Of a DNA stretch of 45,816 nucleotides, positions 13,514 through 45,816 are shown piece after piece. The translations under genes and the position numbers were made by a program. Below the pieces are notes generated by a model. It saw only the letters and a program-made list of their open reading frames with translations, was not told where the DNA came from and made no database searches. Position 1 is the stretch's first letter; each line of letters opens with the position of its first letter. The DNA is from a virus: IMG/VR virus record IMGVR_UViG_3300020400_000857, positions 1 through 45,816 of that record. One strand, written 5' to 3'.

Positions 13514-16500
13514 TTAATCTGGTTCTGCGTCTGATTCTACAAGATAGCCAGTTTCTACATATCCAGGTGCCATGTATTCTTGTGTTTCACCTATTGCAAA
13601 TCCGCCTTCTCTAATGAATGTAGCTTGTGGACCATCTGATGCCCATAAGCCAACGCCTTTACCCCATGTTAAGTAATTTGTTACGGTAATGATCTCTTCG
13701 TCCCATCCTACGTCACCACCTGTTAAACCGCCACCACCTGTTGATGCATCATTATCCACATCTCTGTCCCAGCTTGTATGTCCTTCTGTATCAGCATCGT
13801 TGTCAAATCCATGATTATAAACATCAACTCTAGTTGTTGGCATTTTGTTATCTTCAGGAATTACTTCTGACTGACCGGCACTTTGTATTATTGTGCCTGA
13901 TAAATGTTCACTAACTGGAGTACCTTTTAGTCCTCTAGTTATTCCTGAAAGTATTAAATTATCAGCATCAATTTTTGTATATGATACTAATTCGTCTCCG
14001 ACCCAAATCATTCCAGGCTTACCTGGTAATGGTTGTGGTAATCTAAATTCTAAATCTCTTAATTTTGCTGTAGCAACAGCAGAACCACTTGTTGTAAATC
14101 TTAGCCATGGCCATCTGTTTCTTATAATTGAAAACTTATCAAATGTTACTGATGATGTTTTATCAACACCGTTTACATCTTCTACAGAATCAATTTCTGT
14201 AGGTTGATCAGTAAAACCTGAGCCACCTGATTTCAGCTCTAGTTCTATAATTCTACCTGTTGGGCCAACTTTATTAACAGTCAGTTCACATCCTGTACCA
14301 CCATTGCCTGATAATGTAATAACATCACCAACTGCAAAACCACTACCTGTGTCACTTGTGTAAATTTTATCAATATTAATTACAGCTGATGATTTACCAA
14401 ACGATTCTGTTATAAATGTTGATCTCTTCCTAGGTGCTCTAATTGACAGCCTTCTACCAATGTTATCATAATATGTAATGTAAGTCAGTACGTCACCAAA
14501 TCCTTGTTTAGAAACTGTGTCAACTCTTTCATATGTTTGTACTTTGAATTTTAATGACTCAGATAATCCAAGTGGTATAAACTCTTCTGGATTTTCTTCA
14601 TGATATGGTCTAATAAATCCACCTGCTTCAAGTTCTAATGACACAACGGCCCATTTGCCTTTTGCATAATCATCTTTGAAAGATCCTGATGTATGCTCTT
14701 CTAGACATTCAAACACAATATTCTCAATCATTTCCCATCTGTCTTGTACAAGATCAGTTTCCCATGCAAGATTTTTATGTTTGTTTTTACATCTCCAAAG
14801 TCTTCCTTTGTGTGTTGCTAAAGCACCAACCTCATATTCAGAATTAACATTCCAAGCTGTGAATGTTGATAAATCGTTATACGATATTGTGTCGTCTAGT
14901 TTGTAAGCAAAATTAGTTTTCCATTTTGCATACCCTTCTCTAGTAGTATCGTGGTCAGCAATATAAGGTTTTGCAGTTAATTGTCTTTCTAACCCAAACT
15001 GTGAATTATACCACTCTTGAGTTATGTCTTCATCCCATCTAAAGTTTTTATCAAAATCATATAAGTCTAATCCAAGAACAGATCTTTCAACACCATCTTG
15101 TTTAGCTGTTTTAAAATCAGGTGGAGCATAAAACTCATCAGCTGGATTAATAACTTCGTTTTTCAAATCTTTGAGTAAATCAATAATCAATAAACTATTA
15201 TCATTACTATCTGGTGCTTCTGCAAGTTCACTTAATTGCGTTCTGTATTTTGATAAAGCTATTCTTTCAACAGCTGAATCTGGATTAACTGATGGTTGTA
15301 ATAATTTTATAATCTGATCTTTTTGATTTGCTCCTGCAGAAGCATCTCTAACTTTAATTTCAGTTGTAAATCTATCAAAGAATAATTTGATTTTCTGTTG
15401 CGGTAGTTCAGCCATTCCTACAGTTGCTTGTTCAACTTCTGTAGCATTTTTAGTTACATAGTTTTCAATTTTTGCTCTGTATGGTTTAACTTCATTAATA
15501 TAATCTCTAATGTCACTAAACTTATCAATTTCGTATAATGATTTTTGTGTTAGTGAGTTTTTATTTTGTACTAAACCTAAGTATGATGATTTAAATAACC
15601 AATCATTTCTATCATGTTCAGAGAATACATAATCAATCATTGTAAACAATAATTTGTTTTGCAATTCTTTTCTGTATCCACCAAATACATTGTCTTTAAT
15701 TACTTGAATTAATTCTTGTATGTTATAATCAATTTCATCACTTCTATCTGTATATAAACTTGTTTTTAACTGTATTGTTGATTGCTCGTTTGCAATTCTT
15801 ACCAATTCAAAACCTGTAGTATCTGTTCTTGCATTACCAGTCACTATTTCAGGTCCTTGGCCTGGTAAAGCTGTATTATATGATTGATAGGTTTGTTCAT
15901 CTCCATACCCACCAATACTTGTTCCACCTGATCCTACAGCTGGTAAGCTAATTAATGCTGTTGATGACGCAGATTTTGTGCTGACATCTGCTGTACCAGT
16001 TAGAATTTCTGTTCTATCACCATACACATATAAACCCCATTTGTTGTTGTAATCATATTTAATTTTAACTACATCATTCTGTCTCAGTGAAGTTGTATCG
16101 ATATCATTTTTATAATCATATTCGTAGTCAACTAAGATACTATCATCGTACCCACTAACATAATAGTCTGTTGGTGTTAGATATTTTTCGGTTGTTATAA
16201 CTGTTCCATCTTTTTTAATTTTCCAACTTGGAGATTCAATATCTAAATTGATAGTTGACATTTGTCTGTTTACAAAGTCAACAAATATTCTTCTTGCTGT
16301 TGCAATATCTTTAAACCATGTTTGTCTAGGTCTATATGAATTACCATATAATGCGTCTCCGCCTAATCTTGTTTTATCAGGAACAGCATAACCTAACTTT
16401 CTATTTGGATCACCTTCAGATAACGATGCACCAAATATTTGAACTGGTTGTCCTTCTTCTGCTCCGTACGTGTAAACATTGTTTGATAATGTTGGAACAC

Positions 16501-19500
16501 TATCAGCTGACTTAACAGTATTGTTGGCTAGATAATAGTACTTGCCTCCTTGTGCAAAAGGCGTTTCTAACGGCGTATTCAATAATCTATAACCAGCATT
16601 TGTATCAAATCCTGATAATGAATGCGTAAGTTTGTTCCAAATTTGATCTGGAATAATATTATCTGGATTATCTTTTTGTAACAATAACCACTGTGTATGA
16701 ATTTGTTCGTAGTCATTCATACCTGCCCAACCAATATGCATAATTGATCCGTCATCTGATAATCTTTCTGATATATTATAAGTCAAGAATGATTTGGTTG
16801 TTATTGGTGAGTAGTATGACAATCCTTGTGTTTTTGGATCATTTAAAATTTGACCCATTTTAATTGAACTTAAATTTCTAAATTCTTGTGTAGGTATATC
16901 TGTGCTATTTTTCACCCAGAAGAAATATCTTGTTAATGCTCTACCATTTCTGTCTTCATAGTCTTCTGAAACGTAATCATTTGCATCTTTAACAACACCA
17001 TCGCCTTCATATTCAGCAGGCAGTTTATCACTCATTGTCCATTCATAAAGATCTACACTTGATCCAGGAAATAGTTTACCCCAGTATTTAGATCTATAAT
17101 CTAAATCATAGTTTTCATATTCAATATATCTACAAGTTGATATATCCCACCATACTTCACCTAAGTGTTCTTCTCTCCATGGTAAAGTATTTGAAACTTT
17201 TGAATCATCTGAAGTTGTGTAACTTGCAGGATCAATTGTAGATTTATATTTGATGTTTGCTTCAACGTTAGGTGGTAATACACCTTTAACTGGATCATAC
17301 ACAAACATTTCAGCCTCTGTTCTGTAATTTCCTAAATTGTGAACTTGTGACTTAGAAAATAATGCTGTGTCTACAAACTTTTTTTGTAGTCGTTTAGTTC
17401 TTTCATATAATGAAGTATTACTTTGAATATTTAAATTTATAGTACCCCATGTTGCAACATCTGAATAGTCTACGTTAGAATGTATTATCCAATAACCAAC
17501 TGATGTGTTTGGATTTGTATATGTTACAGCTGGTTCGTCACCATATTTTTCATATGCATTTTTAGTATTTAGATCTGCTGTGAATCTTAAAGTTACATAT
17601 TTGTTTTTACCATAATTATCTAGATAAATTAAGTCACCTTCTGCCCAATTGATATCTTTTAATTTAGGTAAACTTAAAAACTTGCCAACAGTACTTGCTA
17701 AAGAAGTTCCAACGATTTTATGTTTAACTGTGATTCGTGATCTTGGTATTGCAGTTGTTGTGTCAGTTGCATAAACTAGTTGAGAGCCTGATGGAACACT
17801 TGGAGACTCAAGAGTAACACCGTTATCTATTGTTAGTGTAGTTCCACTGATAGTATAATCTGAACCTTGTGTTAGTACTTCATCGTTGTGTAAAACTACA
17901 ACATCACTATCTAAAGTAATTGCAGTTGTAAACACTTTTGTATTTGTATAATCAAAATGTTCAACATAAGGATCATCTAATCCACCAAGTCTATCATGTA
18001 ATCTAACATCAACATAATCAAGTAAACCAGTAGCAGAACTTATTGCACCTACTTGAGCAGTTGTAGTTGGTATTGCACCAGTTGTATCCGTAACTTGGTA
18101 TTGTGCTGTGTTGTAAGTTATTTGTACGTCTGCATTACCACTTGTAGCATTTGTAAATGCAATATTAATGTGTGCTGTATAATTTTTTCTTGCCCAATCA
18201 ATATTTGTGTTTGTTAAAATATTTTCTTGTATTGTGCTTGAATCAATATTGTTGAAGTCTGTTGCACTTACAATTTCAATTTGATTCTGTGATAACGTTT
18301 TATCTTGTCCTTGTTCAACTAAAAATATATTACCATTAAAGTTATTACCACCAGATCCAAACGATTCAGTAATGTTAAACTTCACAGATGAAATACTATT
18401 CAATTTGCTTATTGAACCTAAATCAACAATACCACTTGTAGCGGAATCTTGTATTTTTATTTGTCCTGAAACATCTGTTGCTTGTACTGATATATCAAAC
18501 GACTGATTGTTTGAAGCACTAGTATTTCTACTAATCTCAATTTCAGTTGTTGTTGCACCTTGAATTACTCCACCTACTGCTGTAATATCAGAGTTTGAAC
18601 TGTTAATTACAAAACTTGATACTCCAGTTCTGTCAGGATCAATTTCTATAGTTGGTGTTGTAAATCCTGATCCACCTTTAACAATATTAAGAGTTTTAAT
18701 TGCACCAAATTTATAATAGTTGTTTGCATTAACATTTGCAACAGTATCAGCATGGAACGTGATCCAGTTTTGAGATAATGCTGGCAAAGAATTTAATGCT
18801 GTAGTATTTGGTGTGCCATCTGGTTTAGTTACAGCAACAATTTCTGTTGGTATTCCATAAAAGCCATTACCGCCATTTAGAAGTACTAAATTTTGTATAA
18901 CGCCGGCTGTTTCTGCCACTTGAACTCTACATCCTGTACCACCATTGCCTTGAAACTCAATTACGTCACCTGTTGTAAAGTCACTAGTTGCTGTTAATAG
19001 TGATGCATCGAATTCTATTTCAACAACCTCATCAGCTAAATCATTTACAGATACATCTGCTCCAGAACCAAAAGCACCTGAAGTTGAGAAGTTAAAGTCT
19101 AATGTATCAGGTACAGGAACATATTTGAATACATGATTACCTGTAACTGGTGCATCTGGATCTTCTTTAACAACAGCTTCAGCACTTTCGTTTTCTGTTT
19201 CAACAAGTTTTGATGTTGTTTCATCTAATGTTACAATTAATAATGGCTCAGTTTGCACAACAGAGTCAATAGTATTTGCAGTATTACTGATTCTTAAAAC
19301 ATTCCAATCTAAATTTTTATCATTTGCAATCCAAACTCTATCACCTTCTGTTATTGAATTTGATTCGTATAGTGTATCTAATGATGTTTCATTCCATGTT
19401 TTCTTGTGTACATCATTCCAATGTACGTAACCAGCTGTTGGTAATTTTAATATTGGTTGCTCTTGCATTGGAAATATTTTGTTAGTACTATAATTTCCAA

Positions 19501-22500
19501 TTGGTCTTTTAATCCATCTGTCAGAATCATCAATATCAATTTTGTAAATATCATCAGTTTCATTATCATAATTTGGAACAACAGTTTTATCTGATGGTAA
19601 TACAAAGTCAACAAGCTGTGGATTTTGTTTTATTAATTTGCCTTTTAGTTTAATTTCAATATCTTGTTTTTGTTCTACTGCACCAAAGTTACCAATTTTA
19701 AATGCATACTGTTCATATACATCAAATGTTTCTGTATCTGATATTTCATTTGATTTTAAAAGTTTATCAACTGATTCTTGTGTACCTTTTTGTGCAATCA
19801 TTCCTTGATAGAATTTTGCTTGAGCAGTATCTGATAATCCTAAGTTTGAGAGATACTCTCTATTTTGCCAACCAATGTTATGTAATGCAGAATTTCTAAT
19901 ATCACTTTGTGGTAATAAATTGTCAACATCAAAATATCTTTGAATATTATCAACTGAATTTTCAAAGTTTGGTATTAACGTAGTACCTCTAATTACAAAA
20001 CCAGGTGCGTTAAATGTACCATCCCAATCTTGCGATCTGTAGAAATTAAGTTTTAATCTTCCTTGTCTAACACCAAGTATCGGATCGTAGATAACATCAT
20101 CAAATATAGTTTTATTATTAAATGTAACAACGTGTTCTATTGTTTGTGTAAAAAGTTTACAAGAATAAATTGCATTGTTTTTATCTGTTAATTCAATAGT
20201 AATTGTTTTGTCAGCATCTCTAGTAGATTCAATTAATGATTTATCAATTGGAAATCCATTTTGATCAACAATTTTATAATGTCCGCCAAATGTTTGTTCT
20301 ATGTTTGCTACATAGCCTAAAGCTGGTTTGTATTTTAAGTATTTGATACAAGGATTTAATGTTACACCTTGATCTGTTGCATACTTGGCATTTGCCCAGT
20401 ATAAGAATTCTTTTGCTGAATAATCAAAACTAAACTGCTGTCCAAGTTCATTATCATAATGATCAAATATCCAACCTTGTGATTCTAAGTATTTTCCATA
20501 TCCAACAATAAAGTTATATACTTGTTGTACACTTGTAAACACAGTACCATACTCAACAATATCAGGCACCGTATCGTAGTCATCATAATTTAGTACTTCA
20601 ATACCGTTTACTAATGGTATCTTGTTTGGTTCTTTAAAGTTTGAGTTTATAAAGACATTTGTTGTTGTGTGTTTAGTTGTAGCTTGAAATACTGTACCGT
20701 TATGCTTAACAAAGTCGCCAATCAACAAATCAAGTCCTTCTTTGAATGTTGGAATGTCAGGTGTTTTACCGCCAACGTTTACTGATCTAGATTTGCTTGT
20801 TTCAACAGGATTAAGAACGAAGAATTTAGCACTTGTATTATCGTACCCATTTACTCTGAAGAATCCTTCTTCAGTTTGTGTGACCATAATAGCACTATAC
20901 GTTGATGTTGATAGTGGTGGACTAGTATGTGTTCTAAATGTTATGTCATTATTAGGTATATCAAGTGTTCTTGATTTTGTGCCTGGACTATAAGATTCAG
21001 CTTTTGCTTTCAGTGTTCTTGAGTCTGTAAATCCTCCTACTCTGTATGAAAGTTGAGATTCAAGATTTCGTATTCTGTTACCTAAGTAGGTTGATATATT
21101 TTTTCTTTCACTGATTAAGTAATCACTTAAAATTTGTTGATAGCCTTCTTTAATTAATGTTACCTTTTCTCCATCAGCTGTTTCAATTGATTCACCATGA
21201 ACATATATTCCTTTGTTTTGTTGTCTTCTTCCTGTTTGTGAATCATAAACTTGTCTATCAACTATTTTAGATTTTGTAAATCCTAAAGTATTCCACATTT
21301 TTTCAGTATACTGTAAAGGTGCTAGTGTAAACAATAATTGCTGTATTGCAAAAGGATATGATGAACTATTTTCCCAAGCATACTCCGCCGGAGCTCCATC
21401 ACCAAAGTTCCATTGTCTTTTGTTTATAAGACCATTAGGATATGTTGTTACTATTCCTCTATTTTTAGGATCAATTAATGCACCAACTGAATCAACAGGC
21501 ACCCAATCAGAAAAATTAGGTCTTGCATAAGGATTATCTGGACTGTTATAAGATTTGTTAACAAAGTTCTGTCTGTCACCTGCAATTATTATACCTTTTT
21601 CTAGATGATCTATTAATAAATTTCTTTGTGCTGTTGAAGTCCAACTGTATGTTGAATCCCACCATAGTGGTTTCATTGAAAAGCCTAACATTTCCCATGG
21701 ATGAGTATGCGGACGATCTGTTCCGTACATCTCTTTATAAATGCCTCTCCAGTTACCAGGAAGTTTTTGATTTGATTGTAAACTAGTTGTATCAGAATAA
21801 TTTAATATTTTCCAACTGTTTGTATACAACGTTTCAAAATAGTTTGGTGCAACATAAGTGTTTGGTGAAGTATAAACATCTTCATTATCCACCATCAAAG
21901 CATCTTTCATATCTTGTGATATATTAGTTTTCCAATCAACTCTGTTGTTTATAGCCCATCTATGAAATATAGGTCTTAAAATTTCTTTTGCTTGATCTTG
22001 TGTAAACAATTTAGTTCTTAAATTATCTCCTACAAATTCTTCTGGAACAATAGGTGGAGTATAATCTTTATCTGTAAATTTGTAAGATGCAGAGTTAAAC
22101 ACTCTTGCTTCATAATCAAGAATTGCTTTATCTCTTAAGTCATTGTACGCCAACACTCTTGAACCATCGTGACCTCTGATATATTGTCTTGCGCCTTCAA
22201 CATATGAATCATCATATTCATATTTTGGTAGATACATTTGATGTAAACCTAAGAATGATGGAGTAGGTGGAACATAAGCCGGTTGTATATTTTCATAAAT
22301 TTTTACAGTTATAATATCATTGACTTGTGGCTTATCAGCAACCTGACCTAAGAAAACAATTTTAGTTCCCATTTGATTGTCAATAATGTAATCTTCATTA
22401 TACAATAATACATCACCATTTCTGTAAATATACATATTTTTCAATCCATGATCTTCATCTGGATTATAAGATGCATTCTGTAATTCTATTCCTGGTTCAC

Positions 22501-25500
22501 CAACAAGGTAATCTTCAGATATGATATCTTGTAACATAGTGTCTTGTGTTAACCAAGGAGTATTGTCAACATTCAATACTACTCTTTCTGCTGTATACGT
22601 TTCTCCAATTGATAACATTCTACTATCAGCAAATGGTTGTACTTTGTTTTTGTTTAAATTAGTTGATTTAATTGCATCGTCGACCATTTTACCAACATTG
22701 GTTTCATCATATAAACCTGTTTTTTGTAAAATATCTAAACTGTTTATAAATGCCGCTTTGAATCTTGAGTATGATGAATCAGCATGACGTAAAGCATCAA
22801 ATAAGTTTAAGTTATTATCACCAGCTATCATCATTGCTCTTAGCATTGGTGAACTATGCTGAAGTATCACTCCGCCTTTAGAAGTATCTTTTCTAGTATC
22901 TCTATAATTGTTTGGACCTAAACCTTGACCTAAAATATCTTCTTGATTTTCAATTATTGAAGAGTAATGAGTTAACAAATCACCATACGAATATGACAAT
23001 ACATCTTCATTACTTGCATTAAATTCTAAGTTCTTAGGAACGTCATAATAATTGTATCTGCCTAGTGGTGTTTGAGAATCAGTATCATATTTTATTTGAA
23101 TATATGCACCTGTTTTTGGTTTTGATGTTAATGCTATTTCTTTATTATTAATTACAACAAAATCAATATTTCTTTGCAAGAATTTATTATCTAGTGTTAC
23201 TTGAACTTTTAAAGCATCATCAATTTGATTTTCTAAAGTAAATTTTGTAAAGCCATGAATGTAGTTTTCATCTACTTCAAATTCTTCAACAAGTAATTGT
23301 CTTGAAGGATTATTTGCTACTTTCCACTCGTTGTTAAAAATAGTTGATCTAGCATCAATCATATTATTAACATCTCTGTTAACAATCTGTATTTCGCCAC
23401 CCATGTTTGAATGGTTACCACAATGATAGTACAATGTATCTGGTGCAGAGAATGGTACAGTAAATTCTAATTGCATTCCACCAGTTTGTGATGATATTGT
23501 TTCGTTAATTGTATGATCATCATACGAAGCTGTATAATTTGTTTTTAATGGTGTTGCTTTATAAGTTGGACCTATGATATAAGGAAAGTCAGGCTCGTCA
23601 TTTGCGTCAATAGTTATAAAGTATGCGTAAGTTCCATCTGGATATTCAGGAGTAACACACATTCTACCATTGTGTTCATCTAGATCACCTAGTCCATCAA
23701 CATATTCATAATCTTCCATGTATGTACCATCACGTGTTGAACCATCTTCTCTGTCTGTTGTTTTTAATCGATAGCTTGTTTCCATTTTCTTAAACGAACC
23801 TGTACCATCAGTGTTTGTAAATGCGTATGGTCCATATATTGGATATCCATCAAATGAATAACCAATGATAGGAGAATGATTACCTGAGTCTTTTGTATAG
23901 CTGTCTACTGGGTCGCTATTAACGTAATAGATACCTGCACTATCAACACCTAATGTAATGCCTGCCTTAACAGCATTTGTAGTATATTGTTCAGTAGTAA
24001 TGTTTGTTACGTTAGCTGTCTTTGAGTTGTATATTGGTACACCGTCAACAGTACAACCTATCATACCAAGCGGTGTTTCAACAGGAGTTGATGCCGCGGT
24101 AGGAACTTTTGGAATCTTGAACCTGAAAGTTTGAGATACTATGGCGTTCGGGTTCTGTGCATTCGGAAAAGTTCCTCCGGCATAATACGATGGTATACCA
24201 TTTGATTCGATGTATAAAAAGTTTTCTGTGTCTTTAGTAACACTCTTACCATAATATACTCTACTATTTGTTATTCCTGTTGTATACTCATCGTCATACG
24301 CATTCTTGTTCCAGTTCTGTGAAGTACTGAAATAGAATGGATGATTAGCATTGGTGTAACCAATGTATCCTGATGAAGGATCTTCTGTTTCAAAAATGTA
24401 TGTATAGCCTCTTTTTAAAATTAGTGAAGGTTGCTGTACACCATCTATATAAAATTTATTTTTGCCACTACCGTTATCTTTTGATACTGTGACTTTTTTT
24501 GAAAATCTTCTATTTAAAGATAGTGGGTAGTTTGTTTTTTTATAATGATAATATCCTGTAATGTCTTCTTGATCATTTAAAAATGTTTCAGTTGACAAAT
24601 TATTCTCAAACTCAATAGCTGATACTAAATCTAAATTATTTTTGTAAGATACAGGAAAGTTTAAGTATGGATCGTTTAATCCGTCTGCTGTCTTGTAAGA
24701 ATAAATTTTTGAGCCTGCAAAGTTACTTGAAGTGTACTTACCTGCATCACTTAATGGTACACCATCGTTGTCGTAAAGTTCAAATAATGGATACTGGTTA
24801 ATTTTAGTTTTTGTTTGACCTTCATTCCATCTGTTATTCAACCAATAGTATTCTTTACCTTCATTTGCTAATCCAAGTCTAACAGTAACTTTATCAAAGT
24901 CAATAACAGCTAAATCTAATTGTGTTAATGCAATACTTGTACCTACACCAGATACTGTCCATAAAGAAGAAGTACTGTCAACAAATAAATCATTAATATC
25001 CCAACCTATGTCACCACCTGTACCACCACCATGTGATATTTTTACAATATTACCACTTTGTAATGGCGTGTTAAATGTTAAAGTTTTTGTGCCGATACCT
25101 GTAAAGTCTTCATCAACTTTTTGCAGATCACCATTTAGTAAAATAGTGTCTTGTGATCTCAATGAATCTTGAAGATTGAATACTGTTTGTCCTGCTTGAG
25201 CAAGAAATGATTCAATACCGCCTGTGGTAGGATCATTGTCTGTATCTTGGTCCCATGCTATATCATCTGCATCCCATGGTACATAACTTTGTACATCTTG
25301 ATTATTTTTAAATAACATTTTATGGCCATTTTGCAATGCAATGCCATCTACAGTATATTCTGGATTTCCTTCAATATCAATTTTGTTAACGCCATCAGAA
25401 ACAACATCAACGTCCTGTATATGAATTTTTCCGTAATTGTGTAATTCTAAATTTCTTTCAAATTCAATAATTGGTCTTCTTGCTCTTCTTGTTTCATCTA

Positions 25501-26653
25501 ATGTGAAAGGTGATTCAGTTACTCTATACGATTCATCCCAGTAAATATCATCATAACCTGTTCCTTCGTCATCGTCCCAGTTATGATAAATTTTAACAAC
25601 CTGTGTAACTGATTTAAAATCTGTTAATGTGTTTTTGTTAGCCCAGCCGTTTGTTCTTGACCAAGGATTTTGATCTTCTGCACCTCTTTCGATAGTAATA
25701 TAATCTTGTCCTGCGGCCGATGGTGCTGTATCCCATCTACCTCTGGATAATAAATCAACTGGATTTGAAACTGTTTCTCCAATTACTATTGCACTGAGTG
25801 GAATTTCTTTACCATCATTGAAGTAACCAAATGTATTATAATATTGTGTATTAGATCCATTGTTGATAGGTTTCCAGCCTGACACACCATCTGCATCCCA
25901 TAATCCATCACCAGTATTACCTACATCGTCAATTGATGAGTCCCATGGTAAATCATTTACTTTGAAAAATGTTGCTGGTAAATTACTAGTTGGTACAAGT
26001 CTAATACCTTCTTCTGATCCAACACCTTCAACAAAATATCTAATTTTATTTCCAGACGCATCATTAATTGCACTAGCCGGCGTTACGTATGTGTCATCAA
26101 CAAATTCAATAAACATACCAGATGAAAAAGTAATTCCTGTTGGTGATGTATATTCAGGTTTTCCAATAATTTCTGTTGTAACATTGATATTTTTATCTTC
26201 ATTACCTGCAATTTTTACAGTAGGTAAGTTTAAATCTAAATCTGGATACCAATAATAATTTTCATAGTTAACAAACTTGTCAATATCAATTGGCGGGGCA
26301 AAAGTATAATAATCCTGTGAAAATAATTTGTTATGATTTTCAGTTGGTGCATTATAGTAATTTAGATAGCTTATTAATTCATCATAATATGTTTCTTGAT
26401 CAATTAATGCTGTTTCAGTATCTCTAATTGTTGCTGTAGGTTCTAACTGATAGTAGTGTCTATTTTTAGATATTTCAGGTACATAAAAATCTTTGTTGGC
26501 ATCGTAAATTGTTCCTGCTCTACGACCAATATATCCATCAACGTAATCAGCTTCACCTTTTTTAAACCATTGCTCAACTGTTGAATCAAAAAATGATTCA
26601 AGTTTTGGGTTTTGTAGGTAACCAGGTAATTTTCTAATTACTTTTGTATTCAT
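13514..26653 (-). CDS. Giant baseplate wedge/tail protein in gp7 position
   Basis: A single uninterrupted frame of 4379 residues. It follows gp25 and gp6 exactly where T4 has gp7, but is about four times longer than T4 gp7 (about 1030). The N-terminus (VIRKLPGYLQNPKLESFFDS, then YVDGYIGRRAG) is of the type seen in large baseplate proteins of marine myoviruses. Visible inserts are: a cupredoxin-like domain split around a YHYH-like segment (about residues 725-1100, with NHPFYF, HSPIIGYSFDGYPIYGPY and YYHCGNHSNMGG); and two copies of a GNGGTGC...GGxGF...PTEI module near residues 2565 and 4108, with a third partial GGSGF copy near 2660. No enzyme site is obvious. Translation is coupled to gp6 (TAATG). 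It is likely a wedge and host-contact protein; gp7 homology is by position, not proven. Confidence 0.75.
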   Translation of the reverse strand: MNTKVIRKLPGYLQNPKLESFFDSTVEQWFKKGEADYVDGYIGRRAGTIYDANKDFYVPEISKNRHYYQLEPTATIRDTETALIDQETYYDELISYLNYYNAPTENHNKLFSQDYYTFAPPIDIDKFVNYENYYWYPDLDLNLPTVKIAGNEDKNINVTTEIIGKPEYTSPTGITFSSGMFIEFVDDTYVTPASAINDASGNKIRYFVEGVGSEEGIRLVPTSNLPATFFKVNDLPWDSSIDDVGNTGDGLWDADGVSGWKPINNGSNTQYYNTFGYFNDGKEIPLSAIVIGETVSNPVDLLSRGRWDTAPSAAGQDYITIERGAEDQNPWSRTNGWANKNTLTDFKSVTQVVKIYHNWDDDEGTGYDDIYWDESYRVTESPFTLDETRRARRPIIEFERNLELHNYGKIHIQDVDVVSDGVNKIDIEGNPEYTVDGIALQNGHKMLFKNNQDVQSYVPWDADDIAWDQDTDNDPTTGGIESFLAQAGQTVFNLQDSLRSQDTILLNGDLQKVDEDFTGIGTKTLTFNTPLQSGNIVKISHGGGTGGDIGWDINDLFVDSTSSLWTVSGVGTSIALTQLDLAVIDFDKVTVRLGLANEGKEYYWLNNRWNEGQTKTKINQYPLFELYDNDGVPLSDAGKYTSSNFAGSKIYSYKTADGLNDPYLNFPVSYKNNLDLVSAIEFENNLSTETFLNDQEDITGYYHYKKTNYPLSLNRRFSKKVTVSKDNGSGKNKFYIDGVQQPSLILKRGYTYIFETEDPSSGYIGYTNANHPFYFSTSQNWNKNAYDDEYTTGITNSRVYYGKSVTKDTENFLYIESNGIPSYYAGGTFPNAQNPNAIVSQTFRFKIPKVPTAASTPVETPLGMIGCTVDGVPIYNSKTANVTNITTEQYTTNAVKAGITLGVDSAGIYYVNSDPVDSYTKDSGNHSPIIGYSFDGYPIYGPYAFTNTDGTGSFKKMETSYRLKTTDREDGSTRDGTYMEDYEYVDGLGDLDEHNGRMCVTPEYPDGTYAYFITIDANDEPDFPYIIGPTYKATPLKTNYTASYDDHTINETISSQTGGMQLEFTVPFSAPDTLYYHCGNHSNMGGEIQIVNRDVNNMIDARSTIFNNEWKVANNPSRQLLVEEFEVDENYIHGFTKFTLENQIDDALKVQVTLDNKFLQRNIDFVVINNKEIALTSKPKTGAYIQIKYDTDSQTPLGRYNYYDVPKNLEFNASNEDVLSYSYGDLLTHYSSIIENQEDILGQGLGPNNYRDTRKDTSKGGVILQHSSPMLRAMMIAGDNNLNLFDALRHADSSYSRFKAAFINSLDILQKTGLYDETNVGKMVDDAIKSTNLNKNKVQPFADSRMLSIGETYTAERVVLNVDNTPWLTQDTMLQDIISEDYLVGEPGIELQNASYNPDEDHGLKNMYIYRNGDVLLYNEDYIIDNQMGTKIVFLGQVADKPQVNDIITVKIYENIQPAYVPPTPSFLGLHQMYLPKYEYDDSYVEGARQYIRGHDGSRVLAYNDLRDKAILDYEARVFNSASYKFTDKDYTPPIVPEEFVGDNLRTKLFTQDQAKEILRPIFHRWAINNRVDWKTNISQDMKDALMVDNEDVYTSPNTYVAPNYFETLYTNSWKILNYSDTTSLQSNQKLPGNWRGIYKEMYGTDRPHTHPWEMLGFSMKPLWWDSTYSWTSTAQRNLLIDHLEKGIIIAGDRQNFVNKSYNSPDNPYARPNFSDWVPVDSVGALIDPKNRGIVTTYPNGLINKRQWNFGDGAPAEYAWENSSSYPFAIQQLLFTLAPLQYTEKMWNTLGFTKSKIVDRQVYDSQTGRRQQNKGIYVHGESIETADGEKVTLIKEGYQQILSDYLISERKNISTYLGNRIRNLESQLSYRVGGFTDSRTLKAKAESYSPGTKSRTLDIPNNDITFRTHTSPPLSTSTYSAIMVTQTEEGFFRVNGYDNTSAKFFVLNPVETSKSRSVNVGGKTPDIPTFKEGLDLLIGDFVKHNGTVFQATTKHTTTNVFINSNFKEPNKIPLVNGIEVLNYDDYDTVPDIVEYGTVFTSVQQVYNFIVGYGKYLESQGWIFDHYDNELGQQFSFDYSAKEFLYWANAKYATDQGVTLNPCIKYLKYKPALGYVANIEQTFGGHYKIVDQNGFPIDKSLIESTRDADKTITIELTDKNNAIYSCKLFTQTIEHVVTFNNKTIFDDVIYDPILGVRQGRLKLNFYRSQDWDGTFNAPGFVIRGTTLIPNFENSVDNIQRYFDVDNLLPQSDIRNSALHNIGWQNREYLSNLGLSDTAQAKFYQGMIAQKGTQESVDKLLKSNEISDTETFDVYEQYAFKIGNFGAVEQKQDIEIKLKGKLIKQNPQLVDFVLPSDKTVVPNYDNETDDIYKIDIDDSDRWIKRPIGNYSTNKIFPMQEQPILKLPTAGYVHWNDVHKKTWNETSLDTLYESNSITEGDRVWIANDKNLDWNVLRISNTANTIDSVVQTEPLLIVTLDETTSKLVETENESAEAVVKEDPDAPVTGNHVFKYVPVPDTLDFNFSTSGAFGSGADVSVNDLADEVVEIEFDASLLTATSDFTTGDVIEFQGNGGTGCRVQVAETAGVIQNLVLLNGGNGFYGIPTEIVAVTKPDGTPNTTALNSLPALSQNWITFHADTVANVNANNYYKFGAIKTLNIVKGGSGFTTPTIEIDPDRTGVSSFVINSSNSDITAVGGVIQGATTTEIEISRNTSASNNQSFDISVQATDVSGQIKIQDSATSGIVDLGSISKLNSISSVKFNITESFGSGGNNFNGNIFLVEQGQDKTLSQNQIEIVSATDFNNIDSSTIQENILTNTNIDWARKNYTAHINIAFTNATSGNADVQITYNTAQYQVTDTTGAIPTTTAQVGAISSATGLLDYVDVRLHDRLGGLDDPYVEHFDYTNTKVFTTAITLDSDVVVLHNDEVLTQGSDYTISGTTLTIDNGVTLESPSVPSGSQLVYATDTTTAIPRSRITVKHKIVGTSLASTVGKFLSLPKLKDINWAEGDLIYLDNYGKNKYVTLRFTADLNTKNAYEKYGDEPAVTYTNPNTSVGYWIIHSNVDYSDVATWGTINLNIQSNTSLYERTKRLQKKFVDTALFSKSQVHNLGNYRTEAEMFVYDPVKGVLPPNVEANIKYKSTIDPASYTTSDDSKVSNTLPWREEHLGEVWWDISTCRYIEYENYDLDYRSKYWGKLFPGSSVDLYEWTMSDKLPAEYEGDGVVKDANDYVSEDYEDRNGRALTRYFFWVKNSTDIPTQEFRNLSSIKMGQILNDPKTQGLSYYSPITTKSFLTYNISERLSDDGSIMHIGWAGMNDYEQIHTQWLLLQKDNPDNIIPDQIWNKLTHSLSGFDTNAGYRLLNTPLETPFAQGGKYYYLANNTVKSADSVPTLSNNVYTYGAEEGQPVQIFGASLSEGDPNRKLGYAVPDKTRLGGDALYGNSYRPRQTWFKDIATARRIFVDFVNRQMSTINLDIESPSWKIKKDGTVITTEKYLTPTDYYVSGYDDSILVDYEYDYKNDIDTTSLRQNDVVKIKYDYNNKWGLYVYGDRTEILTGTADVSTKSASSTALISLPAVGSGGTSIGGYGDEQTYQSYNTALPGQGPEIVTGNARTDTTGFELVRIANEQSTIQLKTSLYTDRSDEIDYNIQELIQVIKDNVFGGYRKELQNKLLFTMIDYVFSEHDRNDWLFKSSYLGLVQNKNSLTQKSLYEIDKFSDIRDYINEVKPYRAKIENYVTKNATEVEQATVGMAELPQQKIKLFFDRFTTEIKVRDASAGANQKDQIIKLLQPSVNPDSAVERIALSKYRTQLSELAEAPDSNDNSLLIIDLLKDLKNEVINPADEFYAPPDFKTAKQDGVERSVLGLDLYDFDKNFRWDEDITQEWYNSQFGLERQLTAKPYIADHDTTREGYAKWKTNFAYKLDDTISYNDLSTFTAWNVNSEYEVGALATHKGRLWRCKNKHKNLAWETDLVQDRWEMIENIVFECLEEHTSGSFKDDYAKGKWAVVSLELEAGGFIRPYHEENPEEFIPLGLSESLKFKVQTYERVDTVSKQGFGDVLTYITYYDNIGRRLSIRAPRKRSTFITESFGKSSAVINIDKIYTSDTGSGFAVGDVITLSGNGGTGCELTVNKVGPTGRIIELELKSGGSGFTDQPTEIDSVEDVNGVDKTSSVTFDKFSIIRNRWPWLRFTTSGSAVATAKLRDLEFRLPQPLPGKPGMIWVGDELVSYTKIDADNLILSGITRGLKGTPVSEHLSGTIIQSAGQSEVIPEDNKMPTTRVDVYNHGFDNDADTEGHTSWDRDVDNDASTGGGGLTGGDVGWDEEIITVTNYLTWGKGVGLWASDGPQATFIREGGFAIGETQEYMAPGYVETGYLVESDAEPD

Positions 26654-39149: not shown

Positions 39150-40155
39150 GTTATTCGACAAAGTAGCTTGTTTCACTGATATTCATTTTGGCATGAAGAA
39201 CAATTCACGTCAACACAACAATGACTGTGAAGCATTCATTCACTGGTTCATTGATCAAGCCAAAGAGTTTGGTGCCAAGCAATGTATATTTTTAGGTGAT
39301 TGGCATCATCACAGATCATCAATCAATGTGTCAACGTTGAACTATTCTATGAGTAATATTCGTAGAATATCTAAAGCATTTGAAAAAGTTTATTTTATAG
39401 TTGGTAATCATGATCTCTTTTACAGAGACAAACGTGAAATATCATCTGTGCCTTTTGCAGATGAATTTGAAAATGTACAGGTTATCAACGATCTATTTCT
39501 TGAAGGTGATGTAGCCATAGTACCTTGGATGGTTGAAGATGAGTGGAAAAAAATAAAAAAAATCAAAGCCAAATATATGTTTGGACACTTTGAACTGCCC
39601 AACTTCAAAATGAACGCCATGGTTGAAATGCCAGACACAGGAACTATACAGGCAGATCATTTCAAGAATGTGGGCCATGTGTTCACAGGTCACTTCCACA
39701 AGCGTCAGCATTCAGGAAACATTTCATACATAGGTAATGCCTTCCCTCACAACTATGCTGACGCCTGGGATGACAATCGTGGATGTATGTTGCTGGAATG
39801 GGGACAAGATCCTGTGTACAAAGTTTGGCCAGATGCTCCAAGATACAGAACCATTGAATTGAGCAAACTGTTGGCAGACACAGAAACAGTATTGCAGGCC
39901 AACACATATTGCAGAGTGAAAGTGGATCTAGATATTTCATATGAAGAAGCCAACTATATTCGTGAGAATCTCACAGAATCATATCAACTCAGAGAGCTGG
40001 CACTTCTACCACAGAAAGATGCTGAGGATGAAATAGAATTTGCAGGCGAAATCAAGTTTCAGTCAGTGGATCAAATTGTGATCGAACAGTTGAAAAAACT
40101 GGAGTCTGAGACTTTTGACAACAATGTACTAGTAGAGATATACACAAGACTATGA
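39130..40155 (+). CDS. 47: Recombination endonuclease subunit gp47 (SbcD/Mre11-like)
   Basis: The 341-residue protein has all metallophosphatase motifs in order: TDIHFG (about 16), LGDWHHH (about 55), GNHD (about 92), GHFE and GHFHKR (about 199). These bind two Mn ions for exo- and endonuclease cleavage. It forms the Mre11-Rad50-like complex with gp46, used in resection, recombination and replication restart. Length matches T4 gp47 (339). The gene has visibly higher GC and more CTG/GTG codons than the flanking genes. The stop overlaps the gp46 ATG (ATGA). Confidence 0.95.
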   Translation: MQKEKSKLFDKVACFTDIHFGMKNNSRQHNNDCEAFIHWFIDQAKEFGAKQCIFLGDWHHHRSSINVSTLNYSMSNIRRISKAFEKVYFIVGNHDLFYRDKREISSVPFADEFENVQVINDLFLEGDVAIVPWMVEDEWKKIKKIKAKYMFGHFELPNFKMNAMVEMPDTGTIQADHFKNVGHVFTGHFHKRQHSGNISYIGNAFPHNYADAWDDNRGCMLLEWGQDPVYKVWPDAPRYRTIELSKLLADTETVLQANTYCRVKVDLDISYEEANYIRENLTESYQLRELALLPQKDAEDEIEFAGEIKFQSVDQIVIEQLKKLESETFDNNVLVEIYTRL

Positions 40156-42026
40156 TAAAATTAAAAAACATATCAATCAAAAACTTTCTGAGTGTGGGTA
40201 ATTCTGTGCAGGCAGTGAACTTTGACACACCAGGCATGACACTGGTATTGGGCAATAACTTGGACCTAGGAGGTGATGGATCTCGAAATGGAACAGGTAA
40301 GACTACTATCATAAATGCACTATCCTATGCCATATACGGTATAGCATTGAACAATATCAGACGTGACAATTTGATCAACAAGACCAACGGCAAGAACATG
40401 ATTGTGACTGTGGAGTTTGACAAAGACGGTCACAGCTACAGAATTGAACGTGGTCGTAAGCCAAACATATTCAAGTTTATATGTGATGATGCTGTGGTAA
40501 ACGACACAGACACCAACGAAGCCCAGGGGGATTCGAGACTTACCCAACAAGAAGTGGAACGCATATTTGGAATGAGCCATTTGATGTTTAAACACATTGT
40601 GGCCTTGAACACGTACAACGAACCTTTCTTGGCAATGAAGGCCGGGGATCAAAGAGAAGTGATTGAAGAGCTCCTCGGGATTACAAAATTAAGTGAAAAA
40701 GCTGGCAAGCTCAGAGACGAAATCAAAAGCATCAAAGACGATATCACACGTGAAGAAGCCAGAATCGATACAGTCAAGCGGTCTAACAGCAAGGTAGAAG
40801 ACACCATTAGAAAGTTTAGAATCAAATTACAAGCATGGGATGATGCACATGAAAAGCGGTTAGTTGAATTGCGTTCTTCCATTGCACAGTTAAACAAAGT
40901 GAACATTGATGAAGAGATTGACAGTCATGAACTGCTGGTCAAATGGAACCAAGATAACACTACATTGCAATCGTTGAAGCGAGAGTTAACACAGTCTATA
41001 GGCACGTTTAAACAGCTAGACAGCTCTGTACAGCGTCTGAAAGACAATATTGCTACACTAGAGGACAAAAGGTGTCCCACGTGTGATCAAGCATTGCACA
41101 ATAGTGATGAACATGATCAAATACTGGAGTCTGCTAAGAAAGAACTGATGGAGACCGAAAATCAATCACATACAACGCAAACGCAAATACAAACCACATA
41201 CAATAGTATACAACAATTATCGTCGGCACATACACATACAACAAACAATACAACACATACATCGTCGCATACAAACGTACATACAATAATATCGTCGCAT
41301 ACAAGCAACACATACAATATAGGTGCTAAACCGTCTGTATACTACAATACTATGAACGAAGCATATCAGCATAGACAGAACTTAGAAGCATTACAGTCTG
41401 AAGAAAAACGTGAACAAACAGAAACTAATCCTATTCAAGAACAGATAGATGAACTGCAACAAAAGAATATAGAAGTAATAGATTATGCTACAATTAACAG
41501 TTTAACAAGTTTAAAAGAACATCAAGAGTTTTTGTATAGATTGTTAACAAGCAAAGATTCATTTATTAGAAAGAAAATCATTGATCAGAACTTAAACTAT
41601 TTGAATTCAAGATTGAATCATTATTTAGATACAGTAGGATTACCACATGAAGTAGTATTCCAATCTGATTTAACTGTGATGATTACTGAGCTTGGCAGAG
41701 AGCTTGATTTTGATAATTTAAGTAGAGGAGAAAGAAACAGATTAATACTTGGATTGTCTTGGGCATTCAGAGATGTATTTGAAACAACATCTAATCAGCT
41801 AAACTTATTGTTTATTGATGAATTGATTGATTCGGGTATGGATACACAAGGTGTTGAATCTGCTATTGCTGTATTAAAGAAGATGGGCAGAGAAAGAAAT
41901 AAAAATGTATTCTTAATATCACACAGAGATGAATTGGTAGGAAGAGTAACAAATATATTAAACGTAATTAAGGAACACGGCTTTACTACTTTTGATAATG
42001 ATCTAGAAGTAGTAGGCAACGTATAA
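40152..42026 (+). CDS. 46: Recombination endonuclease subunit gp46 (SbcC/Rad50-like)
   Basis: A 624-residue ATPase: Walker A GRNGTGKTT-like (SRNGTGKTTIINAL, about residues 45-58), zinc hook CPTC (about 310), ABC signature LSRGERNRL (about 530) and Walker B LLFIDELID (about 560). It partners gp47. T4 gp46 is 560 residues. The extra length is mostly a His/Thr/Asn-rich tract (about residues 346-393) right after the hook. It has many His-Thr pairs and little of the Glu/Lys expected in a coiled coil, and it is encoded by a G-poor repeat of CATACA words. The 5' half is GC-richer than the 3' half. The frame is intact throughout. Confidence 0.93.
   Translation: MIKLKNISIKNFLSVGNSVQAVNFDTPGMTLVLGNNLDLGGDGSRNGTGKTTIINALSYAIYGIALNNIRRDNLINKTNGKNMIVTVEFDKDGHSYRIERGRKPNIFKFICDDAVVNDTDTNEAQGDSRLTQQEVERIFGMSHLMFKHIVALNTYNEPFLAMKAGDQREVIEELLGITKLSEKAGKLRDEIKSIKDDITREEARIDTVKRSNSKVEDTIRKFRIKLQAWDDAHEKRLVELRSSIAQLNKVNIDEEIDSHELLVKWNQDNTTLQSLKRELTQSIGTFKQLDSSVQRLKDNIATLEDKRCPTCDQALHNSDEHDQILESAKKELMETENQSHTTQTQIQTTYNSIQQLSSAHTHTTNNTTHTSSHTNVHTIISSHTSNTYNIGAKPSVYYNTMNEAYQHRQNLEALQSEEKREQTETNPIQEQIDELQQKNIEVIDYATINSLTSLKEHQEFLYRLLTSKDSFIRKKIIDQNLNYLNSRLNHYLDTVGLPHEVVFQSDLTVMITELGRELDFDNLSRGERNRLILGLSWAFRDVFETTSNQLNLLFIDELIDSGMDTQGVESAIAVLKKMGRERNKNVFLISHRDELVGRVTNILNVIKEHGFTTFDNDLEVVGNV
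41170..41330 (+). repeat. CATACA-rich low-complexity tract inside gp46
   Basis: About 160 bases with very few G, built of ACA/CATACA words, and two copies of ATCGTCGCATACAA (near 41261 and 41291). It encodes the His/Thr-rich insert of gp46. No homologous sequence is seen elsewhere in the window. Confidence 0.8.
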
Positions 42027-43008: not shown

Positions 43009-43042
43009 TAGTCAGCCTTTATGTCAATTAAATTTAGCTTAT

Positions 43043-43070
43043 ACTATAGCATTTATTTGATATTTGTCAA
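43043..43070 (-). promoter_or_regulatory. Sigma70-type promoter of the nuclease gene
   Basis: On the minus strand TTGACA (43070-43065), 16 bases, then TATAGT (43048-43043). It is divergent from the promoter at 43098. Confidence 0.65.
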
Positions 43071-43097
43071 CCTGTTAAAAAAATTTGGAAAAAAAGG

Positions 43098-43127
43098 TTG
43101 ACCTTTCTATGTATTTCCTATTATGCT
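43098..43127 (+). promoter_or_regulatory. Sigma70-type promoter of the RNA-rich region
   Basis: TTGACC (43098-43103) and TATGCT (43122-43127) with an 18-base spacer on the plus strand. It leads into about 460 bases with no convincing gene. Confidence 0.5.
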
Positions 43128-43129
43128 AA

Positions 43130-43590
43130 CAAACATTACACAGAACACAGAGAAAAAGCAGGCAAACATCTACTAACAAAATTCTAACACAGGCAATATA
43201 GCGACTCTAGTGATTTGATATCTCAGAAATGCGCCGAGACAAGGTGGTGAATCTGATGTCGCACGTGAACAGCTAAACGTAAAGGCTGAAAAGATAATGG
43301 CTCTGAGAAAAAGCAACCATTAACTTATATGTAAACTGCTAACCTTGGGTACATATAAGTTCCGTCGTATGGAGTAGGAATAATAGGGGTTGAAGGACGA
43401 CCGCCTCTGTAAGGTTCCGTAGGTTAGATGACTTGTCTCTGGTAATGAGATACTCCGCCCTTTACTAGGGTGGAGTATGGCCAAATCTTGGTAATAAGCA
43501 AATACATTAATCATTTAAATTAACTTAGAAACTGTAAATCAACGAAGTTGATATTTTGCTCTTTAGAGCAAATCTAACAGTTAACAGTTA
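43130..43590 (+). ncRNA. Candidate structured noncoding RNA
   Basis: No credible gene fills 43014-43595. The plus strand instead has strong helices. AACTTATATGTA (43322-43333) pairs with TACATATAAGTT (43350-43361). TACTCCGCCCT (43451-43461) pairs with AGGGTGGAGTA (43467-43477) with one G-T. ATCAAC pairs with GTTGAT (43538-43552). TTTGCTC pairs with GAGCAAA (43555-43572). TCTCAGA (43221-43227) can pair with TCTGAGA (43302-43308). The 16-base loop of the first helix contains TAACCTT, which can pair with AAGGTT (43411) or AGGTTA (43421), suggesting a pseudoknot. A promoter lies just upstream. It matches none of tmRNA, RNase P or group I/II introns that I can recognise. The exact ends are not known. 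Confidence 0.6.
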
Positions 43591-43595
43591 CTATA

Positions 43596-43946
43596 TTGGT
43601 TAACACAATGTTTATTCCCCTAGTTCTGACTTTAAATAATTTTGTTATGAAAATCATCCACACACACGAAAAAATCCGTAAACTCCTTGACAAGTATCAA
43701 CCGCGGAAAATATATATGCGCCTGAAGTCAAAGTCTCCAAAAGTATCTCATGAGACCTGTCCTGCCATAGATAAAGTTTTAGATGCACTAGAAAAACTTT
43801 CGACTTCAGGTAAGCCTATTACAGAAGCAAAATTTAAATCGTTAGAAAAGCAAATGGAAAAATTAAGAACTGCTAATGAGAGTTTACGAGATTCAGGTAG
43901 ATACTGGTATAATGCTTGTAAAGAAATTCTAGACCCAAACTATTAG
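43596..43946 (+). CDS. Small basic helical protein of unknown function
   Basis: The frame is open from a TTG at 43596. ATG codons at 43608 and 43647 are more likely starts, and I see no clear ribosome site at any of them. From 43647 the product is about 99 residues: basic at first (HTHEKIRKLLDKYQPRKIYM), then helical and charged (VLDALEKLSTSGKPITEAKF, later EKQMEKLRTANESLRDSGRY), with a possible short coiled coil. I do not recognise it. It follows the structured RNA region and ends with a 4-base convergent overlap with the gp26 extension frame. Confidence 0.55.
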   Translation: MVNTMFIPLVLTLNNFVMKIIHTHEKIRKLLDKYQPRKIYMRLKSKSPKVSHETCPAIDKVLDALEKLSTSGKPITEAKFKSLEKQMEKLRTANESLRDSGRYWYNACKEILDPNY

Positions 43947-44173
43947 ACTACAGGCACCATAGACTTTTTATATCGTTCCATGTTGTCTTTAACAAATGCA
44001 AAAACATCTGCACGATCCTGTGATTCCATCATCCATGCCTCGCTTAATGATATACTTCCCCTCATATACCAACACATTTCATGAATTTGTCTAGTTAAGG
44101 CCCTTAAATCTTTTTCCATACCATCTACATATTTGGTAATTTCTTCAGGGGTGTGAGTTAAGAGCCAGTTACG
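43943..44173 (-). CDS. Second frame of the gp26-type gene, reached by -1 frameshift
   Basis: In the -1 frame relative to the gp26-type gene there is an open stretch of 76 codons starting at CGT 44173-44171, directly after the slippery heptamer. It reads RNWLLTHTPEEITKYVDGME, with a later helical part MCWYMRGSISLSEAWMMESQ and DNMERYKKSM. No start codon with a ribosome site exists: the first ATG (44119) lacks one. It would extend the gp26-type protein from 288 to about 360 residues. The arrangement resembles tail assembly chaperones such as lambda G/GT. An independent start at 44119 (58 residues) is the alternative. Confidence 0.65.
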   Translation of the reverse strand, partial: RNWLLTHTPEEITKYVDGMEKDLRALTRQIHEMCWYMRGSISLSEAWMMESQDRADVFAFVKDNMERYKKSMVPVV

Positions 44174-45024
44174 AAAAAACTTGAAATATCAAATTCTACA
44201 TCAGCATCAAATTCTTTTTGTGTCTCTTTACACACAACAGTTCTTTTACGAGCAAGACCAATTCTGTTTATCTCAGCAATTTTAGTATCAACTTTTTTAA
44301 TATCAGTTGATGGTACATTAAGTACAAATTCTCTAATTTGTTTTGAGTCATTTGTTTCTTCGCCACTTGGTACTCTAATTTTTGAGATACTGTGTACCAT
44401 TACATCATTACTCATGTCAGCAAGTTTTCTAAAACTCTTTGAAAAGTTTTGTATACTTTGTTCTGTATTTGCTTGAGCTTGTTGTATAGCTTTTGTTTCT
44501 TCAAATGCTCTTAATTGAATTTGTGTTGTAACTGCATAGCTATGAGGTCTTATATAAACTGTACATCCATTTTCTAAATGCACAGGATATTCTTTTTCAA
44601 GTTTTGTTTGCTCAGATAATAGTTCTTCAATGTTTAACACGTATGTATCTGTATTTCCTGAATGCGGTGATTTAGCTTGGATTTCCATTTCTCTACCAAA
44701 TGTTGCCATACGAATTGCTAACATTAAAATATCAATGTCTGGTTGTGGTAGATCCATTGGATTTAAGATTCCCGGACAACAGCTTTTGATAACTTCAACA
44801 ACAGCTTCTCCGTTAAGCAATGCATCTGGAGATTTCATAAGAGCTTCGTCTTTGGCAGTCATTGCCATAACACCTACTTCTCCTGATGCTGTTAGTACAA
44901 CATTTTTTTCGTCAGTAAAATAACCATTACTAGGCAAAGAAACATATAGCTTTGGTTGTCTATAAAACTCTGCTAGTGGATTTGCTGGCCTTACCTGTTT
45001 TTTATCTTCAACGTTTTGTTCCAT
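44158..45024 (-). CDS. 26: gp26-type baseplate/tail assembly protein
   Basis: The 288-residue protein has the T4_baseplate (gp26-like) pattern: FYRQPKLYVSLPSNGYF near residue 20, MTAKDEALMKSPDALLNGEAVVEVIKSCCPG near 55-85, DIDILMLAIRMATFGREMEI near 98-117, and a beta-rich C-terminal half. T4 gp26 is 208 residues and acts in hub assembly. The final residues DISSFF are encoded with a T-TTT-TTC heptamer (44179-44173), after which the 0 frame ends within five codons and the -1 frame stays open for 76. A GAGG ribosome site and an ACTAAATA late octamer precede the ATG. The divergent neighbour is a tape-measure-like gene. Confidence 0.82.
   Translation of the reverse strand: MEQNVEDKKQVRPANPLAEFYRQPKLYVSLPSNGYFTDEKNVVLTASGEVGVMAMTAKDEALMKSPDALLNGEAVVEVIKSCCPGILNPMDLPQPDIDILMLAIRMATFGREMEIQAKSPHSGNTDTYVLNIEELLSEQTKLEKEYPVHLENGCTVYIRPHSYAVTTQIQLRAFEETKAIQQAQANTEQSIQNFSKSFRKLADMSNDVMVHSISKIRVPSGEETNDSKQIREFVLNVPSTDIKKVDTKIAEINRIGLARKRTVVCKETQKEFDADVEFDISSFFVTGS
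44173..44179 (-). other. Candidate -1 frameshift slippery site TTTTTTC
   Basis: On the minus strand the 0-frame codons are AGT TTT TTC GTA, so T-TTT-TTC has the X-XXY-YYZ phase of a classical -1 slippery heptamer. After a slip the next codon is CGT at the start of the open -1 frame. Confidence 0.7.
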
Positions 45025-45131: not shown

Positions 45132-45816
45132 ATGGCAGACGGCGATAGAATTATAATAGCGGGTTTTGAAATAGATGTTGCGAAACAAGGTGGTTTTGCG
45201 ACTGAACAAACTCTTGACAGACTTGCAAAAGCAATGGAAAAAATGTCAGGTGGTGCTACACAAAACACCGCTGTCCTTAGACAAGGACTAGGAAAGATTG
45301 CTAGTCAACAAACTAAACTCTCCGACGCTCAGAAAACATCCGCAGATATATTCAAAGAAATTGGATCCAAACAAACTAAAGTACTTCAAGATCAATCTAA
45401 ACTTGATAAAGACAGAAATAGATTGTTTGGTAATCTGCGTGATGCTATGGGTACAGCGGCACGTCAGTCATATGATAAAACTGTAAAAGGATTGCAAGAG
45501 CCAAAAGGATTAGGTGTATTTGGTAAAGCACTTGGTACAGTAACAAGCAAGTTGGGTGTAATGGGTGCGGCAATAGGTGGTCTTGCAACTGCCATTGGTG
45601 CTCTGGTTGCCAAGATTGTAAACATAAGTGATCAATACTTGACTCTATTTAGACAGGGTTTTGTATTTCAAGAATCTCAAACAGCGGCCGCAAATGGTTT
45701 GATGCAGGTAGCTGATATGTCATCAAGAATGTTTATATCAACAGATAGATTTGTTGAACTGGTTTCAACATTTTCAACTACAGTTGGTATAGTTGGAATG
45801 AAAAGATTTGCAGATC
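45132..45816 (+). CDS. Tape-measure-like tail protein, N-terminal part (cut by window edge)
   Basis: The plus strand is open from the ATG at 45132 to the window end, 228 codons without a stop. It starts MADGDRIIIAGFEIDVAKQG. A long charged helical stretch follows (roughly residues 25-115, rich in Gln, Lys, Asp), then a Gly/Ala-rich hydrophobic segment (LGVMGAAIGGLATAIGALVA, about residues 145-164), then more helix. This mix of coiled coil and hydrophobic helices suits a tail tape-measure protein, which sets tail length (gp29 in T4). It is divergent from the gp26-type gene, and tail assembly chaperones are often encoded beside tape measures. The family call is inferred from composition and context. 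Confidence 0.6.
   Translation, partial: MADGDRIIIAGFEIDVAKQGGFATEQTLDRLAKAMEKMSGGATQNTAVLRQGLGKIASQQTKLSDAQKTSADIFKEIGSKQTKVLQDQSKLDKDRNRLFGNLRDAMGTAARQSYDKTVKGLQEPKGLGVFGKALGTVTSKLGVMGAAIGGLATAIGALVAKIVNISDQYLTLFRQGFVFQESQTAAANGLMQVADMSSRMFISTDRFVELVSTFSTTVGIVGMKRFAD

Follow-up and report, generated by a model that had tools for sequence, protein, structure and literature searches.

A −1 frameshift signal lies in the gp26-type gene of the virus record analysed here, the whole of which (45,816 bases) is hereinafter called the window. The locus very probably codes for the tail assembly chaperone of a contractile-tailed phage of the T4 type, with a short and a long form produced by −1 frameshifting. 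The signal itself is genuine, and the locus comprises the following features:

44158..45024, minus strand: 0-frame ORF for the short form (TAC-N) of the T4 gp26 family, 288 aa, assigned by PF12322, phrog_150 and profile comparison
44173..44179, minus strand: slippery heptamer T-TTT-TTC in X-XXY-YYZ phase, read from the sequence and kept in 142/145 loci
44158..44160, minus strand: 0-frame stop TAA, four codons past the heptamer, read from the sequence
43943..44173, minus strand: −1 extension of 76 codons plus stop, predicted to append the C-terminal domain (TAC-C, T4 gp51 C-terminal type) and to give a 360-aa fusion
44158..44166, minus strand: 5′ arm GGCTCTTAA of a putative stimulatory stem, 6 nt past the heptamer and containing the 0-frame stop
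44099..44107, minus strand: 3′ arm TTAAGGGCC of the same putative stem, from stem prediction and covariation
45132..45816, plus strand: divergent neighbour, a candidate tape measure protein (N-terminal 228 aa of an 861-aa protein)

The 0 frame of the gp26-type gene ends, on the minus strand, with GAT ATT TCA AGT TTT TTC GTA ACT GGC TCT TAA, and the in-phase T-TTT-TTC that the original prediction had placed at this 3′ end is found at 44179-44173 in X-XXY-YYZ phase. The accompanying claims about the reading frames were likewise borne out: past the slip, the −1 frame remains open over 76 codons (44173-43946) until a stop at 43945-43943; the frames give products of 288 and 360 aa, where 288 and about 360 residues had been proposed; and the −1 frame has no start with a ribosome site, its first ATG coming 18 codons past the slip with no evident Shine-Dalgarno sequence. 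The interval first assigned to the signal, 43943-44200, contains the slip site and the −1 frame, while the short form begins outside it at 45024. The 32 listed genes of the window contain 86 in-phase XXXYYYZ heptamers, and the one in the gp26-type gene is alone in having 70 or more open −1 codons behind it. The sole other in-phase TTTTTTY among the window's genes is in the ORF at 8080-9036, and a long −1 frame is absent after it.

The junction recurs widely among related phages. By tblastn, 61 phage records carry a gp26-type protein, nearly all of them jumbo phages, including Phosso, PA5oct, Atu_ph07, RaK2, 121Q, GAP32, CBB, Munch, Serratia BF, XacN1, RAS14 and Vibrio 2.275. The in-phase heptamer followed by an open −1 frame is present in all 15 phage records that were read and in all 11 IMG/VR contigs that an initial contig search returned, one of which (L026) breaks off within the −1 frame. 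With P-SSM2 as a bridge to more distant relatives, the same junction was found in P-SSM2 itself, HTVC008M, S-RSM4, pf16, Aeh1, Cronobacter S13, RHph_Y68, Vibrio K575 and SCTP-2. The comparison of related gp26-type genes that had been proposed as a check thus shows both the heptamer and the −1 ORF to be conserved at the junction, the former in 142 of 145 related loci spanning the RaK2/121Q/PA5oct/Atu_ph07 jumbo group, cyanophages, the pelagiphage HTVC008M, Aeh1 and others. A sequencing error or a pseudogene was considered as a source of the interrupted frame and is ruled out by the occurrence of the same junction in 117 distinct 3′ regions.

Across these 117 regions the base after TTTTTT is C in 108, T in eight and G in one. 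The codon preceding TTT is variable (Ser, Asn, His, Asp, Ala, Arg or Tyr), and its last base is T in every locus bearing the heptamer. Taking one locus per 60%-protein-identity cluster (n = 32) and scoring each locus against the codon usage particular to it, we obtain a joint probability of about 10^-20.3 for TTT preceded by an NNT codon, a value to be read as a guide given that the clusters are akin. The heptamer and its phase hence appear, on codon choice, to be conserved beyond amino-acid need.

The three loci of the 145 that lack the heptamer are L136, Vibrio phage D503 and Microcystis phage Mel-JY01. In L136 the 0 frame stops early; unlike it, D503 and Mel-JY01 are true exceptions in which both coding regions are retained. 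In D503 (L033 3190-3399), TCA CTT TTC AAG TAATGG replaces the heptamer, both frames persist, and the ATG of the −1 ORF overlaps the 0-frame stop, which suggests that this phage may have switched to translational coupling. In Mel-JY01 (L037 3180-3470) it is the +1 (or −2) frame that carries the extension, past C TTT TTT TGG, a run of seven T; the cause is either another kind of shift or an error in the sequence of the run. Loss of the heptamer with both frames kept had been named beforehand as an observation that would count against the signal; D503 is such a case, whereas 142 relatives keep the heptamer.

The short form belongs to the T4 gp26/gp51 family. It matches PF12322 (1.8e-15), the only Pfam family recovered for it, and phrog_150, annotated as 'baseplate hub' (1.4e-18), and a profile of the short-form group matches the T4/cyanophage gp26 profile (prob 99.2, E 1.4e-19) in an alignment extending to the FF of the slip site. 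In T4 both gp26 and gp51 are PF12322 proteins (8.8e-64 and 3.9e-52). T4 gp26 is homologous to the short form and ends ..EFFELL at the position where its relatives slip, and T4 gp51 is homologous to the long form and carries the extension in frame. T4 differs in having two divergent genes, 26 (short) and 51 (long), devoid of the heptamer, where the window has a single gene with a frameshift. The −1 domain matches a profile including the T4 gp51 C-terminus over 41 columns (prob 83.6, E 8.1e-6), a moderate match that is weaker than that of cyanophage gp51; P-SSM2 gp51 matches the C-terminal part of phrog_150 (3.5e-7). Searched alone by tblastn, the −1 domain retrieved only close relatives or no match. 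Structure models were obtained for the short form, which is confidently predicted (pLDDT 87.5), and for the −1 domain, which is modelled as all-helical (pLDDT 83.8). The short-form fold resembles baseplate-hub proteins in a viral model library and has no fold match in the PDB; the fold search with the −1 domain gave no match. Neither by sequence nor by fold did the PDB yield a match below E 0.001, and hence none to the solved chaperones of other phages. The short form of Atu_ph07 (L003 2992-3831) shows a weak match to phrog_1854, 'PmgB-like' (E 0.0048); in phage P1, pmgB immediately precedes sit, the tape measure gene, and is a proposed tape measure chaperone (PMC9024508).

The divergent neighbour had been described as tape-measure-like. 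It is complete in the near-identical contig L016, where it codes for 861 aa, and it shows 22.7% identity over 666 aa to a RaK2 virion structural protein (E 6e-10). Its length fits a tape measure, because the corresponding proteins and tails measure 720 aa and 128 nm in RaK2 (PMC3622015) and 798 aa and 136 nm in PA5oct (PMC3936114). Family membership and length thus make the neighbour a candidate tape measure; no tape-measure profile matched it. In HTVC008M, a same-strand gene just downstream does match tape-measure families (1e-11). More generally, of the 43 jumbo-type loci, 28 have a divergent ORF of 500 aa or more upstream, and of the 98 cyanophage-type loci, 62 have an ORF of this size downstream on the same strand; Atu_ph07, XacN1 and Vibrio 2.275 have other neighbours.

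Elsewhere in the window, the ORF at 40152-42026 appears to code for a recombination endonuclease of the gp46 type, interrupted by a His/Thr-rich insert of low complexity (THTTNNTTHTSSHTNVHTIISSHTSNTYN); several relatives have gp46-type genes annotated close to their gp26-type gene. About 590 bases (43010-43595) between a resolvase gene and a small plus-strand ORF hold no convincing ORF, and Rfam and tRNA scans gave no match there or anywhere else in the window. The minus-strand ORF at 13514-26653, with 4379 codons, is unusually long for a phage gene.

These affinities bear on what the two forms do. The database name 'baseplate hub' and the genetic support for gp26 in the hub given in a T4 review (PMC3004832) would accord with a real frameshift whose two products are structural baseplate-hub proteins and not tape-measure chaperones. 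We consider this unlikely: the same review also classes both gp26 and gp51 among the chaperones of hub assembly and records that gp51 is missing from the particle, the genes adjoin candidate tape-measure-type genes, and T4-like chaperones have been identified, as cited in PMC10885494. The proposal of a G/GT-type chaperone pair is supported, with the short form homologous to T4 gp26 and the long form corresponding to T4 gp51; earlier work cited in PMC10885494 and PMC12846349 had already identified tail assembly chaperones in T4-like phages.

The extension appears to be translated and under purifying selection, because differences pile up at the third position of its codons and are mostly synonymous. 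Past the 0-frame stop, 43 locus pairs differ at −1 codon positions 1, 2 and 3 in 112, 44 and 402 cases, and the changed −1 codons of the same pairs comprise 372 synonymous and 117 nonsynonymous ones. Such a frame might instead be a separate small gene whose translation begins, through reinitiation or coupling, at a start close to the 0-frame stop: it is annotated as its own CDS in P-SSM2, S-RSM4, HTVC008M, 121Q, Phosso, K575 and others, 64 of the distinct loci whose −1 frame is complete have a start codon three codons past the slip, and D503 has its overlapping ATG in place of the heptamer. Yet in PA5oct the −1 frame has no ATG, GTG or TTG anywhere, and in the window the first possible start lies 18 codons in, within the conserved domain, so the frame is not an independently started gene with a start of its own. 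Moreover, the heptamer is conserved and the start codons are not, and T4 gp51 is an in-frame fusion. We accordingly regard a separate gene as highly improbable, although many cyanophages may have some separate translation of the −1 frame because of the start three codons past their slip sites. Public annotations miss or shorten the extension elsewhere: PA5oct has no gene there (L002 3850-4061) and Atu_ph07 a 123-base ORF (L003 3832-4058).

A putative stimulatory structure downstream of the slip site is enriched across the group. The mean folding z of the 70 nt past the slip, taken relative to shuffled sequences, is −2.04 as against −0.24 in control stretches of the same genes (p=1e-7), and a near-site stem at p<0.05 is predicted in 14 of 32 representatives versus eight of 128 controls, at a spacing of 5-7 nt downstream of the heptamer. 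Some representatives, including Serratia BF, Munch and S13, have no significant near-site stem. The putative stem of the window, GGCTCTTAA/TTAAGGGCC, has 9 bp and begins 6 nt from the heptamer (p=0.02 vs shuffles). Across the window, Phosso and Atu_ph07, the homologous stem is 96.7% paired, with three pairs altered on both sides, and this covariation beats nearly all shuffles and every slid register. As the stem's own fold energy is ordinary (z −0.26) and the minimum-energy fold of the window alone is not unusual, it is the covariation in these three sequences that argues for it. Upstream of the slip, a Shine-Dalgarno-like stimulator is present in seven of 32 representatives versus a control rate of 0.06 and is possible in some lineages; none was seen upstream of the slip site of the window.

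The enriched downstream stem suits ribosomal slipping and speaks against transcriptional slippage, in which the RNA polymerase would change the frame along the T run. We find the latter scarcely credible even with the six-T run of the heptamer and the runs of at least seven T in XacN1, RAS14 and HTVC008M, since six T is short for polymerase slippage and 108 of the 117 distinct loci have a C closing the run at a single codon phase. The programmed −1 frameshift that had been proposed is thus well supported: heptamer, phase and −1 ORF are kept despite extreme protein divergence, the extension shows purifying selection and the stem is enriched.

On this programmed −1 frameshift, two nested products would arise from one mRNA. 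Most ribosomes would read the 0 frame to the stop at 44158, yielding the 288-aa short form (TAC-N), while in a minority both Phe-tRNAs would slip simultaneously from TTT TTC to TTT TTT, probably assisted at T-TTT-TTC by the downstream RNA stem. With the 76-residue helical domain appended by the slip, the product would be the long form of 360 aa (TAC-NC, T4 gp51 type). If lambda G/GT is a guide, the short form would be present in many copies and the long form in few, and together they would keep the tape measure protein soluble and recruit tail or hub subunits. The slip signal and its phase, their conservation, the selection on −1 coding, the enrichment and covariation of the stem and the homology to gp26/gp51 were computed directly; the slippage itself, its rate and the chaperone role we infer from lambda G/GT (PMC5009743), T4 (PMC3004832) and the later T4-like work.

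The likeness to lambda G/GT consists in two forms arising by a −1 frameshift near the 3′ end, which here means the signal and the reading frames. The locus differs from it in the absence of any detected sequence or fold similarity, in the heptamer used and in the position of the tape-measure candidate, which in the window is divergent and not downstream. Closer precedent exists among the T4-like phages. Vladimirov and colleagues reportedly describe frameshifting as apparently conserved across several groups of T4-like phages, with T4 itself relying on genes 26 and 51. Their study (Vladimirov, Gautam & Davidson 2022, Virology 566:9-15) is cited in the PRFect paper (PMC10885494) for T4-like phages that, in place of frameshifting, have one short gene and another, longer one that encodes the fusion, and in the Adele paper (PMC12846349) for −1 signals of the poly-T kind in the short-form genes of T4-like phages. 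As far as these citing texts convey it, their chaperones resemble the present ones in PF12322 (gp26/gp51), in the short and long forms and in the poly-T −1 signal; the covarying downstream stem and the heptamer-less exceptions come from the present analysis. A 2016 review still treats T4 as the exception to the conserved G-T frameshift (PMC5009743), and in the excerpted text of Sullivan et al. 2010 (PMC3037559) cyanophage gp51 is described as devoid of the first ~200 residues of T4 gp51, with frameshifting unmentioned there. In the Vandenendeviridae (phage Adele), a −1 frameshift with an invariant GTTTTT motif ends the short-form gene (PMC12846349); this is another phage family, likened by motif and not by PF12322 homology. 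For the RaK2/121Q/PA5oct/Atu_ph07 group, our literature search found no description of a frameshift. The principle of a frameshifted gp26/gp51-type chaperone is therefore already published for T4-like phages, and the locus is a well-supported new example and not a new mechanism. What appears to be new is its occurrence in the marine lineage of the window and among the jumbo phages, together with the stem covariation and the exceptions that have lost the heptamer.

In evolutionary terms, we lean towards frameshifting being ancestral for gp26/gp51 across the T4 supergroup and the jumbo phages, with the two genes of T4 as a derived split by duplication and with lineage-specific covarying stems, here one containing the 0-frame stop. 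The relatives compared here have a single gene with one slip site in place of the two genes of T4, and their hosts range from cyanobacteria to enterics. Genome annotations mislead at this point, naming the extension as a separate hypothetical protein or gp51 or omitting it. The same view would also offer a testable account of T4 gp51, which is required for assembly yet absent from the particle.
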